This document shows positions 16,304 to 31,676 of a stretch of 43,807 bases of DNA, piece by piece. This stretch comes from an uncultured Methylopila sp. (GTDB lineage Bacteria; Pseudomonadota; Alphaproteobacteria; Rhizobiales; Methylopilaceae). How positions within the stretch are numbered: position 1 is the stretch's first letter; each line of letters starts with the position of its first letter. The position numbers were made by a program, and so were the translations under genes. The stretch spans positions 1 to 43,807 of the forward strand of contig CABHPB010000065.1 in NCBI GenBank assembly GCA_902168115.1, written 5' to 3'. The notes below the pieces were generated by a model. It saw only the letters and a program-made list of their open reading frames with translations. It was not told the DNA's origin and made no database searches.

Positions 16304-17374
<1,071 letters not shown>

Positions 17375-17484
17375 CGGCGAGCTCCTTCCAAGAATCTTAG
17401 AGAAGACTCTTCTGCTTCTTTTTCTAGGGAGGCGGATTACAGGCGTTCTCGGCCGTCCACAAGACGTCCACAGAGCGGCGTTCG

Positions 17485-17499
17485 TTTACCATTCGTTAA
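17485..17499. promoter_or_regulatory. CtrA-type site 1
   Basis: TTTA-CCATTCG-TTAA differs at one base from the CtrA consensus TTAA-N7-TTAA and contains the favoured ACCAT spacer. In Caulobacter, CtrA bound at such sites silences the origin. Confidence 0.5.
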
Positions 17500-17521
17500 G
17501 AACTGCGGCGGGCTTGGGGTC

Positions 17522-17536
17522 TTAACAATTCATTCA
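17522..17536. promoter_or_regulatory. CtrA-type site 2
   Basis: TTAA-CAATTCA-TTCA matches TTAA-N7-TTAA at seven of eight positions. It lies 37 bases from site 1 in the same orientation. Confidence 0.45.
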
Positions 17537-17718
17537 CCATTCCATCGACTCCCTCCTCGGGCCAGTCCCGGACGGCGGCCCTGTTGATGAAAATCCGCCC
17601 CTCGGCGAAGGTGAGGCCGGCGGGGCTAGACCGCGCCGGAGTCATCCACAGACGTCCACCGCTGCGTCGACAGGCTGTCGCGCATCGCTCCCCAGCCCGC
17701 ACCCGCCAGTTTCCGGTC

Positions 17719-18603
17719 ATGTCCTCCCCGCCGAACTTCCATTTCCACCTCGTCTCTGACGCGACGGGAGAGACGCTGGTCGCGGTCGCCCGCGCCGCCG
17801 CCTCGCAGTTCCGGAGCGTCTCCAGCGTCGAGCACGTCCACCCGCTGGTGCGCTCCCCGCGCCAGCTCGAGCGCGTGCTCGCCGAGGTCGCGTCCGAGCC
17901 CGGCATCGTGCTCTACACGCTCGTCGACGAGGGGCTGATCTCGGAGCTCGAGCGCCGCTGCGCGGAGCTCGGCTGCCCGTGCCTGTCGGTGCTCGCCCCG
18001 GTGTTCCAGTTGCTGCGGACCCATCTTGGCCTCGAAACCGCCGGACAGGCGGGCGCGCAGCACGATCTCAACGAGAACTATTTCCGGCGGATCGACGCGC
18101 TGAACTACACGATGGCCCATGACGACGGGCAGGGCGCCGACGACCTCGCGGGCGCCGACGTCGTGCTGCTGGGCGTCAGCCGCACCTCCAAGACGCCGAC
18201 GTCGATCTACCTCGCCAATCGCGGAGTGAGGGCCGCGAACATCCCGCTCGTGCCGGACATTCCGCTGCCGCCGGGCGTCGAGGGGCTGACGGGTCCGCTG
18301 ATTGTCGGGCTGATCGCCCAGCCGGACCGGATCGTCGAGATCCGCCACAACCGCCTGCTCGGTCTCGACGCCAATCCGGGCGCGAGCTCGACCGCGATGT
18401 TCCTGACCGACAGCGCCTATATCGACAGGGAATACGTCGCGGCCGAAATCCGCGCCTCGCGCCGGCTCTGCGCCAAGAACGGCTGGCCGACGATCGACGT
18501 GACCCGCCGCTCGATCGAGGAGACGGCGGCGGCCGTCATCGCGATGCTCGGCGAGCACAAGGCCAAGCGTGCGACCGCCGGGGCCGCGGGCGGGGCGGCG
18601 TGA
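17719..18603 (+). CDS. ppsR: PPSR/DUF299 kinase-pyrophosphorylase
   Basis: A 294-residue member of the DUF299 family, bifunctional serine/threonine kinases and phosphorylases that switch PEP synthase or pyruvate phosphate dikinase off and on. The opening FHFHLVSDATGETL and the P-loop-like GVSRTSKTPTSIYLAN are diagnostic, as is the later NPGASSTAMFLTDSAYID region. ATG 17719 fits the family N-terminus. Its target enzyme is not in the window. It starts the rightward cluster leaving the probable origin and shares GTGA with maf. Confidence 0.93.
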   Translation: MSSPPNFHFHLVSDATGETLVAVARAAASQFRSVSSVEHVHPLVRSPRQLERVLAEVASEPGIVLYTLVDEGLISELERRCAELGCPCLSVLAPVFQLLRTHLGLETAGQAGAQHDLNENYFRRIDALNYTMAHDDGQGADDLAGADVVLLGVSRTSKTPTSIYLANRGVRAANIPLVPDIPLPPGVEGLTGPLIVGLIAQPDRIVEIRHNRLLGLDANPGASSTAMFLTDSAYIDREYVAAEIRASRRLCAKNGWPTIDVTRRSIEETAAAVIAMLGEHKAKRATAGAAGGAA

Positions 18604-28484: not shown

Positions 28485-29191
28485 TGCTCTCTGACGCCGT
28501 CCTCGCCGCGCGGCAGACGCTGTCGCCGCCCTTCCGCATGGTGCTGTTGAAGTCGCTCGGGATCACCGTGCTGCTGCTCGTCGTCGGCTGGATCGGGCTG
28601 CAGGAACTCGCCGAGCGGCTGCTGGTCCTGCAGAACCAGACCTTCAACTGGATCGCCCACATCGTCCTCGGCCTCGGCACGGCGCTCGGGCTGCTGTTCC
28701 TCGTGACGCCCATCACCGCGGCGGTCGCGGGCCTGTTCCTCGACGACGTCGCCGCGCTGGTCGAGCGCACGCACTACCCGGACGACCCGGCCGGCCGCGA
28801 GCTTCCGATCGTCCGCTCGCTGCTGATCTCGGCGCGCTTCTTCCTGGTGGTGCTCGGCCTCAACATCCTGCTGCTGCCGCTCATCTTCGTGCCGGTGGTC
28901 AACATCGTCGCGTGGGTGGCGCTGAACGGCTACCTGCTCAGCCGGGAGTATTTTTCGCTCGCGGCCCTGCGCTTCCGGCCGGAGGTCGAGGCGACGGCGT
29001 TGCGGCGGCGCAACAGGCTGAGGATCTTGGCGGGGGGCGCTGTGGTGGCGGGTCTCGCCGCGCTGCCCTTCGCGAATCTGCTCACGCCCTTGTTCGCGAC
29101 CGCTTTCTTCGTCCATCTGCACAAGCGGATCTCGTCCGATGAGGCCCGCCGGCTCGAGGATGGCGCCGCCGGGCCCCGGCTCGCGCCGTAA
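28484..29191 (+). CDS. EI24-domain (CysZ-like) membrane protein
   Basis: A 235-residue membrane protein with about four to five spans (LLKSLGITVLLLVVGWIGL, HIVLGLGTALGLLFLVTPI, FFLVVLGLNILLLPLIFVPV, LAGGAVVAGLAALPFANLL). It matches the EI24 family that includes CysZ, a sulfate channel. Sulfate transport is not assured for this branch. It is coupled to plsC by a one-base overlap, an unusual neighbour. Confidence 0.82.
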   Translation: MLSDAVLAARQTLSPPFRMVLLKSLGITVLLLVVGWIGLQELAERLLVLQNQTFNWIAHIVLGLGTALGLLFLVTPITAAVAGLFLDDVAALVERTHYPDDPAGRELPIVRSLLISARFFLVVLGLNILLLPLIFVPVVNIVAWVALNGYLLSREYFSLAALRFRPEVEATALRRRNRLRILAGGAVVAGLAALPFANLLTPLFATAFFVHLHKRISSDEARRLEDGAAGPRLAP

Positions 29192-29294
29192 CGCCCCTTA
29201 AACCTGCCGCAATCAAAGTCCACCCGGATATCCTTGAGGACGGTCAGGCCCTTGCGGCCCGATCGAGCGTGGGACGTGCGAGGGTTCGGCGGGA

Positions 29295-31676
29295 ATGGGT
29301 TTCGGACGAGGGTCCGGGCGCGAGGAGCGGCGCGAGCCGAACTTCGGCGCAGGATCGGACAAGGGCGACATGCGCCTCACGGCGGCCGACCGGCCGACGG
29401 GCGCCGCCTCGTTCGACGAGCCCGCGCCGGCGGCGCGCAAATCCTTCTTCGGGCGCGACAGGCAGGATCGCCGGGAGCCGAACTTCGATCTCGGCGACGG
29501 CCGGCGCGAGCCGGAGCTGGACGGGGATCGCCGCGAGCCGAGCTTCGGCGCGCCGCGCGGGGACGGCGGACCGGACATGGCTGAGCGTCGCAAGAGCTCC
29601 TACTGGTCCTGGGTGATGGGCCGCAGCCGCCCGGCGCGCTCCTCGTCGTCGTCCCGCGGCCGCGCGCCTGCGCGCCGCAGGCGCAGTTTTCTCGGCCGTC
29701 TGGTCTCGCTGGTCTTCGTGCTGTTCCTGCTCGGCGGGGCGACGGCCGGAGGCGTCGTGTTCTATTACGCCTCGCGCCTGCCGCCGATCGAGAACCTCGA
29801 GATCCCGAAGCGGCCGCCGAACGTCGTCATCGCAGGCTTCGACGGCAAGCCGATCGCCAATCGCGGCGAGACCGGCGGCGCCTCCGTGCCGCTAGGCGAG
29901 ATGCCGAAATTCGTGCCGCAGGCCTTCATCGCGATCGAGGACCGGCGCTTCCGCGACCATTGGGGCGTCGACGTCGTAGGCCTCGCCCGCGCGGTCGCGA
30001 CCAACGTCATGAAGGGTCGCCTGACGCAGGGCGGCTCGACCCTGACGCAGCAGCTGGCGAAAAACCTGTTCCTGACGCCGGCCCGTTCGCTGGAGCGCAA
30101 GGTGCAGGAGGCGGTGCTCGCCTTCTGGCTCGAGCGCAAGTTCGGCAAGGACAAGATCCTCGAGATGTACCTCAACCGCGTCTATTTCGGCGCGGGCGCC
30201 TACGGCGTGGAGGCGGCGGCGCAGCGCTATTTCGGCAAGTCGATCCGCAAGGTGAACGTCACCGAAGCCGCGATCCTGGCCGGGCTCGTCAAGGCGCCGT
30301 CGCGGCTCTCGCCGATGAACGACCCGGACGCCGCGCGCCGCCGCGCCGACCTCGTCCTGCAGGCGATGGCGGACGAAAACTACCTCACGCGCGACCAGGC
30401 CAACGTCGCCTTCCGCGTCACGCCGCCGTCCCCCGCGCCGAAGCCACAGGGCGCGGTCGGCTATGCGGCCGACTGGGTGATGGAGCAGCTCGACGGCCTC
30501 GTCGGCCTCTATGACGAAGACCTCGTGGTTGAGACCACGATCGACCCTAAGCTCGAGGCGGAAGCCGAGAAGGCGCTGGCCGACGGCGTCTCCAAGCGCG
30601 GCGGCAAGCTCGGCGTGACGCAGGGCGTCGTCGTCTCGCTCGCGCCGGACGGCGCGGTGAAGGCGCTGGTCGGCGGCAAGTCCTATGCGGAGAGCCAGTT
30701 CAACCGCGCGGTGGCGGCCAAACGCCAGCCGGGCTCGGCCTTCAAGCCCTTCGTCTATCTGGCCGCGCTGGAAGAAGGCCTCGATCCGGAGACGGTGCGC
30801 ACCGACGCGCCGCTCAAGATCTCGGGCTGGACGCCGGAGAACTACACGCGCCGCTACGGCGGGCCGATGACGCTGACCTACGCGCTGTCGCAGTCCGTGA
30901 ACACGGTCGCGGTGCGGCTCGGCGTCGAGGCCGGTCCGGTCAACGTCACCCACGCCGCCGAGCGGCTGGGCGTCGCCTCGCCGCTGGTGCCGAACCCCTC
31001 GATCGCGCTCGGCACCTCGGAGGTGACGCCGCTCGAGCTGGCCGGCGCCTACGCCGCCTTCGCCAACGGCGGCACGCTCGCAAAACCCTACATCGTCCGG
31101 CAGGTGAAGACCGCGCAGGGCGAGACGCTTTACAAGCGCAAGCCCGAGCCCGCGAACCACGTCGTCGACGCGACGCGCGTCGGCATGATGAACTACATGC
31201 TGGAGCAGACGCTGCGCTCCGGCACCGCGCGCTCGGCCTCGCTGCCAGGCTGGCAGGCGGCGGGCAAGACCGGGACCTCGCAGGATTTCCGCGACGCCTG
31301 GTTCATCGGCTACACCTCGCACCTCGTCACGGCGGTGTGGGTCGGCAACGACGACAACTCGCCGACCAAGCACGCCTCCGGCGGCGGCCTTCCGGTCTCG
31401 ATCTGGAGCCGCTTCATGACCGCAGCGCATCAGGGCGTGCAGCCCGCCGCGCTTCCGGGCGACTGGTCGCCGGCGCCGCCTGCGGTCGCCGACACCGGCG
31501 AGCAGCCCGGCGACGTCTACCAGACCGGCCGCGGACCTTCGGGCGCGCCGGTCGAGGAGGAGCCTTACCCGAGCACGGCCCGGATCGAGGAGGACTACCC
31601 CCGCGAACGCCGCGTCGAGCGCCGCCGCGAAGACGGCCCGATTGGCTTCCTCAAGGGCCTGTTCGGCGGGTTCTGA
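29295..31676 (+). CDS. mrcA: Penicillin-binding protein 1A, bifunctional, with repeated N-terminus
   Basis: A 793-residue class A PBP that polymerises glycan strands and cross-links peptides. Order: a disordered charged N-terminal tail (1-130) with four copies of an RREPxF-like unit (11-20, 59-67, 70-78, 79-86); one membrane span (131-158); a glycosyltransferase domain with catalytic Glu215 (AIEDRRFRDHWG); and a transpeptidase domain with Ser481 (SAFK), Ser534-Val-Asn536 and Lys658-Thr-Gly (KTGTSQDFRDAW). The C-terminus is Arg/Glu-rich. ATG 29295 is chosen because the first repeat unit lies right after it. It converges with a sulfotransferase-like gene across a palindromic element. Confidence 0.94.
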   Translation: MGFGRGSGREERREPNFGAGSDKGDMRLTAADRPTGAASFDEPAPAARKSFFGRDRQDRREPNFDLGDGRREPELDGDRREPSFGAPRGDGGPDMAERRKSSYWSWVMGRSRPARSSSSSRGRAPARRRRSFLGRLVSLVFVLFLLGGATAGGVVFYYASRLPPIENLEIPKRPPNVVIAGFDGKPIANRGETGGASVPLGEMPKFVPQAFIAIEDRRFRDHWGVDVVGLARAVATNVMKGRLTQGGSTLTQQLAKNLFLTPARSLERKVQEAVLAFWLERKFGKDKILEMYLNRVYFGAGAYGVEAAAQRYFGKSIRKVNVTEAAILAGLVKAPSRLSPMNDPDAARRRADLVLQAMADENYLTRDQANVAFRVTPPSPAPKPQGAVGYAADWVMEQLDGLVGLYDEDLVVETTIDPKLEAEAEKALADGVSKRGGKLGVTQGVVVSLAPDGAVKALVGGKSYAESQFNRAVAAKRQPGSAFKPFVYLAALEEGLDPETVRTDAPLKISGWTPENYTRRYGGPMTLTYALSQSVNTVAVRLGVEAGPVNVTHAAERLGVASPLVPNPSIALGTSEVTPLELAGAYAAFANGGTLAKPYIVRQVKTAQGETLYKRKPEPANHVVDATRVGMMNYMLEQTLRSGTARSASLPGWQAAGKTGTSQDFRDAWFIGYTSHLVTAVWVGNDDNSPTKHASGGGLPVSIWSRFMTAAHQGVQPAALPGDWSPAPPAVADTGEQPGDVYQTGRGPSGAPVEEEPYPSTARIEEDYPRERRVERRREDGPIGFLKGLFGGF

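Follow-up and report, generated by a model that had tools for sequence, protein, structure and literature searches.

The 344-bp gap between the divergent genes hemE and ppsR, at positions 17375-17718 of the stretch analysed here, is with high probability (about 0.88) a chromosomal replication origin, belonging to the hemE-ppsR class already described for Caulobacter and Rickettsia. A sequence-only reading had proposed an origin between these two genes, and our analysis supports it on four grounds: the neighbour order (found in 169 of 188 loci), conserved DnaA- and CtrA-type motifs, a tandem DnaA-type pair that is unique in the genome, and a cluster of motifs confined to hemE-ppsR gaps in the 2.24 Mb of genus sequence scanned. 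Overall, this is an ordinary, well-supported alphaproteobacterial origin of a kind already known. What the analysis adds is the spread of putative CtrA-type origin sites outside the well-studied Rhizobiales families.

The analysed stretch (43,807 bp; hereafter the window) forms contig 65 of a draft genome of 4.10 Mb in 154 contigs. Its features in and around the gap are as follows (a dot in place of a strand marks features without orientation):

16304-17374, minus strand: hemE, uroporphyrinogen decarboxylase, left flank (profile matches)
17375-17718, dot: oriC candidate, hemE/ppsR intergenic gap (neighbours, motifs, conservation, uniqueness)
17392-17396, dot: GANTC, candidate CcrM-type methylation site (motif match)
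17405-17409, dot: GANTC (motif match)
17409-17427, plus strand: CT-rich tract CTTCTGCTTCTTTTTCTAG, hemE-proximal, candidate unwinding region (conserved in the genus alignment)
17456-17472, plus strand: tandem DnaA-type cores TCCACA-AGACG-TCCACA (cores at 17456 and 17467)
17485-17499, dot: CtrA-type site 1, TTTACCATTCGTTAA (7/8 to TTAA-N7-TTAA)
17522-17536, dot: CtrA-type site 2, TTAACAATTCATTCA (7/8 to TTAA-N7-TTAA)
17547-17551, dot: GANTC (motif match)
17582-17594, plus strand: TGTTGATGAAAAT with TGTTGAT core (core invariant in all 14 aligned gaps)
17639-17643, dot: GANTC (motif match)
17642-17650, plus strand: DnaA-type box TCATCCACA (8/9; TCCACA core at 17645), followed by a weaker GTCCACC
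17719-18603, plus strand: ppsR-type gene, Kinase-PPPase, formerly DUF299, right flank (profile matches)

Profile matches on both flanks bear out the earlier claim that the neighbours are those of the Caulobacter origin, namely hemE and a DUF299 gene. The hemE product matches PF01208 (E 2.8e-104) and TIGR01464 (366.5 bits against a cut-off of 302.95), and the ppsR-type product matches PF03618 (E 9.2e-84, 281.5 bits) and NF003742 (316.5 bits against a cut-off of 225). Because the stricter NCBIfam PpsR model NF049928 scores 141.5 bits, below its cut-off of 350, "ppsR" is used here as a family-level name. By the criteria of PMC1914354, origins of the hemE-COG1806 type are flanked by hemE and/or COG1806 (ppsR), and this gap has both. 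They are also richer in AT than their genome: the gap has a GC content of 61.3% versus 69.3% for the 43.8-kb window (AT 38.7% versus 30.7%). An Rfam scan of the whole window at gathering scores gave no matches.

The two CtrA-type sites start 37 bp apart, neither is perfect, and they are the only sites matching TTAA-N7-TTAA at 7/8 or better in the window; sites of the kind expected at a hemE-COG1806 origin are thus present here only when one mismatch is allowed. Of 16 TCCACA cores in the window, three lie inside the gap, one of them within the 8/9 box, and these three provide the expected DnaA sites, with no consensus 9-mer among them. We therefore recover all the motifs named in the sequence-only reading: two CtrA-type motifs 37 bases apart, the 8/9 DnaA box TCATCCACA and two weaker TCCACA-core sites. 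Its account does not include the four GANTC sites, against 0.46 expected in the gap and at a density about nine times that of the window. The TTWTCCACA box does not occur on the whole contig, and was rejected as an origin marker: in six genomes its 3-11 matches per genome all lie outside hemE-ppsR gaps and are fewer than those of the reversed control in 6/6.

On the hemE side, the 60-bp stretch 17381-17440 is 55% AT. With WATCAANNNNTTR, which we take to be the IHF consensus, no IHF-type site of the kind expected at a hemE-COG1806 origin was found in the gap with up to one mismatch. The conserved TGTTGATGAAAAT, whose TGTTGAT core is found in 41 of 162 Rhizobiales gaps, is a candidate protein-binding site. 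A reading of the CT-rich tract (complement) as a DnaA-trio array was set aside: in the BUS module, as described in PMC8287927, the first DnaA box lies 0-16 bp from the array, and here the tract ends at 17427, about 25 bp (by eye) from the nearest DnaA-type 9-mer. The tract may still be the unwinding site.

These elements are conserved among relatives. The genus group comprises 13 Methylopila/Hansschlegelia-type genomes, the window's included, and we aligned their 13 gaps with one sister-genus gap; across all 113 gaps measured, hemE-ppsR gaps range from 311 to 535 bp. The alignment conserves the hemE-side CT-rich tract, the DnaA pair TCCACAAGnCGTCCACA, then GTTAACC-AT-CGTTAAG, a second GTTAACGannTTCACC, the invariant TGTTGAT and, on the ppsR side, TCRTCCACAGnCGTCCACCG. 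Taken together, the genus gaps hold 11 perfect CtrA sites, distributed over 10 of the 13 gaps (0.01 in dinucleotide shuffles), 39 TCCACA cores (1.2 in shuffles) and 44 GANTC sites (24 in shuffles). CtrA site 1 is perfect (8/8) in 9/13 aligned genus gaps and scores at least 7/8 in 13/13, and site 2 scores at least 7/8 in 12/13. The window, L141 (whose gap is identical to that of L032) and L144 read GTTTACC and the other ten read GTTAAC, which sets these three apart as a sub-lineage with 7/8 sites only. The gap of the sister genus, G013, has no TTAA-N7-TTAA site at 7/8 or better. Among 80 named loci, the window's nearest relative is L032 (93% HemE; JADBEO010000079.1), which is titled Chelatococcus sambhunathii S14 but clusters within the Methylopila/Hansschlegelia group, so that its title is probably wrong.

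The tandem pair TCCACA-N5-TCCACA has a single match in the 4.10-Mb genome, at 17456, and lies inside the gap in 12 of the 13 genus genomes. A count over 14 genomes gives 17 matches, of which hemE-ppsR gaps account for 12, against zero for the reversed control; G005 and G013 are the two genomes without a match. We also scanned 2.24 Mb of genus sequence, consisting of the window and samples of G012, G007 and G008 (with about 70 kb counted twice), for clusters of motifs. Three TCCACA cores within 400 bp occur at five places, and three cores together with a CtrA-type site occur at four, which are the four hemE-ppsR gaps. Thus no comparable region lies elsewhere within the 2.24 Mb, and for the DnaA pair alone this extends over the whole window genome (G000).

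Chromosome polarity gives a less specific signal. GC skew and third-codon-position skew in the closed relative G012 (1.0 Mb, or 0.93 Mb without overlaps) were noisy and showed no switch point. We turn to GGGCAGGG, which we take to be the FtsK guide motif KOPS and read by the polarity rule we assume for it. In G007 (two contigs), the best-fitting origins lie at 3.22-3.33 Mb with 32 of 38 sampled sites (equalled by 18 of 5000 shuffles), with a terminus at 0.74-1.16 Mb and hence near-equal arms; the gap at 3.285 Mb fits 31/38 and parS at 3.314 Mb fits 32/38. For G008, a genome 88% complete and 5% contaminated, the best fit of the sampled sites is at 1.91-2.71 Mb (23/27), the gap at 2.829 Mb gives 21/27, and the density of plus-strand KOPS increases at 2.69-2.94 Mb, a changepoint that comes from the listed plus-strand positions and is consistent with the sampled stretches. 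The best fit in G012 is at 2.41-2.47 Mb (73/78, reached by 0 of 5000 shuffles), and the position of ppsR (2.149 Mb) gives 71/78, two sites short of the best. Within two sites of the best, contig 1 of G012 would have its terminus at 1.22-1.30 Mb and its origin at 2.15-2.81 of 4.45 Mb; such very unequal replichores, unlike those of G007, reflect either a rearrangement or an assembly error. In both G008 and G012 the best switch lies on the hemE/parS side of the gap, by two sites each, and this offset is either chance or a real distance between polarity switch and origin. Overall, KOPS polarity places the gap in the right part of the chromosome for an origin in G007, and less sharply in G008 and G012; it is compatible with the gap as origin and does not single it out.

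The par locus and dnaA are both displaced from the gap. In the 10 genus genomes that carry both on one contig, the parS pair is 14-90 kb from ppsR. Six of these genomes (G002, G007, G008, G010-G012) have it on the hemE side and four (G003-G006) on the ppsR side. G001, G009 and the window genome carry parS and ppsR on different contigs, the window genome's parS pair being on contig C50 at 28700-30694. The nearest parS-type match in seven other-genus genomes, including G013 of the same family, is 2-7 kb from ppsR, which argues that either the par locus or the origin surroundings have been rearranged in the genus. The distance from dnaA to ppsR is about 93-95 kb in G007, G010 and G011; it rises to about 128 kb in G008 and to about 1.9 Mb in G012. 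Being large and variable, it makes dnaA a poor origin marker in this genus.

We surveyed CtrA-type sites at 188 loci, of which the 169 with the hemE-gap-ppsR arrangement gave 162 distinct gaps (7 duplicates left out); the other 19 loci matched one of the two genes only, and some of them are short contigs or fragments. Among the 19 are seven hemE loci (L040, L041, L069, L070, L087, L103 and L108) that lack a neighbouring ppsR despite 6 kb of upstream sequence, so the gene pair is not universal, and in those lineages the origin neighbourhood may be broken up. Conversely, G051 (L150) shows no hemE in the roughly 2.5 kb available upstream of its ppsR.

Perfect TTAA-N7-TTAA sites, present in 10/13 gaps of the genus, occur in 28/85 gaps of the other sampled groups (1.24 expected from shuffles) and in 10/64 gaps of named records (0.38 expected). 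In a tree of HemE and PpsR (FastTree), we delimited from the tree order, after the result was known, a block of 54 rows that contains named Rhizobiaceae, Brucellaceae and Phyllobacteriaceae together with other records, two f24 rows and one row titled Bacillus subtilis. This last, L074 (JAHREI010000001.1, titled Bacillus subtilis SK6B4), is a Rhizobiales hemE-ppsR locus that sits beside Phyllobacteriaceae/Brucellaceae, and its title is probably wrong. The block has a perfect site in 1/54 gaps (0.33 expected; mean GC 48%) and the gaps outside it in 47/108 (about 1.3 expected), or in 37/95 (1.28 expected; mean GC 52%) when the genus is left out as well. A Fisher test on the block gives p 4.8e-8, ignoring relatedness. 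The count on the tree takes relatedness into account: 21 changes suffice for the perfect-site trait, whereas 1000 label shuffles require 41.7 on average and never fewer than 34. The groups f2 (0/4), f18 (0/4), f20 (0/3), f29 (0/3) and f31 (0/3) likewise lack perfect sites, which disfavours a single loss; together with the post hoc choice of the block, this makes the pattern a patchy one that needs more than one gain or loss. In the four Bosea-type gaps L042, L063, L068 and L084 the same DnaA pair recurs, and a perfect CtrA site comes about 53 bp after it, a distance that is about 18 bp in the genus (both counted from the start of the second core to the start of the site). In other families some perfect sites fall near the end of a gene and could be unrelated.

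By this motif survey, many Rhizobiales beyond the well-studied families carry putative CtrA-type origin sites, in a pattern structured by phylogeny, and the near-absence of perfect sites from the block is in line with reports of CtrA not binding such origins. We offer only tentatively, with doubt outweighing confidence, the broader idea that CtrA acts directly on oriC in a wide range of Rhizobiales, that this control is probably ancient there, and that it has disappeared more than once. The loss would be most complete in the lines near Rhizobiaceae, Brucellaceae and Phyllobacteriaceae, with another route now coupling replication to the cell cycle. If true, the model species behind the current view of Rhizobiales would not be representative of the order. 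Among the abstracts listed in a literature search covering few subscription journals, we found no report of CtrA sites at Methylopila-type or other non-model Rhizobiales origins, which is weak evidence of absence.

The window genome encodes several cell-cycle regulators. CtrA is encoded on G000:C69 (NF045991, 418 bits against a cut-off of 350), with ChpT about 6 kb away on the same contig; DnaA is also encoded, as is GcrA by a profile match whose model also matches a Sulfolobus control. No TTAA-N7-TTAA site at 7/8 or better was found in the 600 bp upstream of ctrA, so that region lends no independent support to the idea that this CtrA reads the motif. Genome-wide, perfect TTAA-N7-TTAA sites number 16, against 7 for the reversed control.

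A working model can be drawn from these elements. DnaA would load on the tandem TCCACA pair (17456-17472) and on the distal box (17642), and would then open the hemE-proximal CT/AT-rich stretch, from which forks would depart both ways. CtrA~P at the two TTAA-type sites would block this opening until CtrA is cleared as S phase begins, and the GANTC sites may mark newly copied DNA through CcrM-type methylation. Since the CtrA-type sites lie between the DnaA pair and the distal box, competition between CtrA~P and DnaA, as in Caulobacter, would be the simplest model. From the conserved CtrA-type sites and the CtrA, ChpT and GcrA genes, we infer a link between replication and the cell cycle, with the proviso that the window's own sites are imperfect. 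Direct CtrA control of the origin appears somewhat probable for the genus. In the window's own lineage with its 7/8 sites it comes close to an even bet but falls short of one, and control in the window genome may be reduced because its sites are imperfect.

Three other explanations bear on different parts of this reading. The gap could be a conserved divergent promoter region and nothing more, with the origin in another place, perhaps closer to the displaced par locus. Both genes are indeed transcribed divergently from the gap, the parS pair lies 14-90 kb off in the genus, and KOPS polarity prefers other points in G007, G008 and G012. In G012 the best fit lies past ppsR towards parS, by about 0.26-0.32 Mb, and in G007 the parS position outscores the gap. 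These preferences amount to one or two sites, however, and dnaA is far off at a variable distance. Against a promoter-only gap stand the tandem DnaA pair, unique in the window genome and placed inside the gap, and the confinement of the combined DnaA and CtrA cluster to hemE-ppsR gaps in the 2.24 Mb scanned. We consider a promoter-only gap very unlikely.

With the gap taken as the origin, the question becomes what the TTAA-type sites do. They might serve transcription of hemE or ppsR, with CtrA acting as a promoter regulator and not on initiation; they do lie within a divergent promoter region, and in S. meliloti CtrA is described as a transcription factor without origin binding (PMC4433202). 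In both the genus and the Bosea-type gaps, the site nonetheless keeps to one side of the DnaA pair, just beyond it, and the 54 block gaps are nearly devoid of the site while still flanked by both genes, although those rows were selected for having both. A purely transcriptional role is unlikely in our judgement, though it deserves real weight. The sites might instead be AT-rich opening or architectural elements for another protein, such as IHF, GapR or similar, a notion favoured by the imperfection of the window's own sites, the mild genome-wide enrichment of TTAA-N7-TTAA and the lack of the motif upstream of ctrA. This reading fits poorly with a TTAA-N7-TTAA spacing kept perfect in most genus gaps far beyond the shuffles, with a site presence that tracks the tree, and with a site-poor block that is no poorer in A+T than the rest. 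We hold this architectural role to be quite improbable.

Read as an origin with CtrA-type sites, the gap has several uses. The genus offers a clean test pair, in which lineages with perfect sites can be set against the window's 7/8-site sub-lineage. If sister families carry CtrA at the origin, a comparison of the two groups would show what took the place of direct control. Moreover, the draft genomes of the group gain a defined position 1.

Among known origins, the closest comparison is Cori of Caulobacter crescentus, the hemE/CC0001 origin, which is AT-rich, with five CtrA sites, five DnaA boxes and one IHF site (PMC1914354). Judged by these published features, the gap shares with Cori its flanking genes, its DnaA-type and CtrA-type sites and its AT-richness; it differs in having two CtrA-type sites at 7/8, weaker DnaA cores and no IHF-type match. 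In the predicted origins of Rickettsia and of Wolbachia, Ehrlichia and Anaplasma, the number of CtrA sites varies by lineage, down to zero (PMC1914354). Like the gap, these origins have a hemE flank and mixed DnaA and CtrA sites, but those of the Wolbachia type are flanked by COG1253 and hemE, whereas the gap keeps both hemE and COG1806 (ppsR).

CtrA is bound next to the origin in Hyphomonas neptunium (PMC7200025), a stalked budding bacterium placed in Caulobacterales (PMC8116508); binding was measured in that species, whereas the window's gap is known from its motifs. The origin of Sinorhizobium meliloti is reported to be without CtrA motifs and not bound by CtrA, and CtrA depletion there over-amplifies the genome by a route its authors call indirect and unknown (PMC4433202). 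For Brucella abortus, too, CtrA is reported not to bind the origin (cited in PMC2877005). Gaps from the same genera as these two species (L092, L097, L057 and L072) share the hemE-gap-ppsR arrangement of the window but have no perfect CtrA site, in contrast to the genus of the window, where 10/13 gaps carry one.
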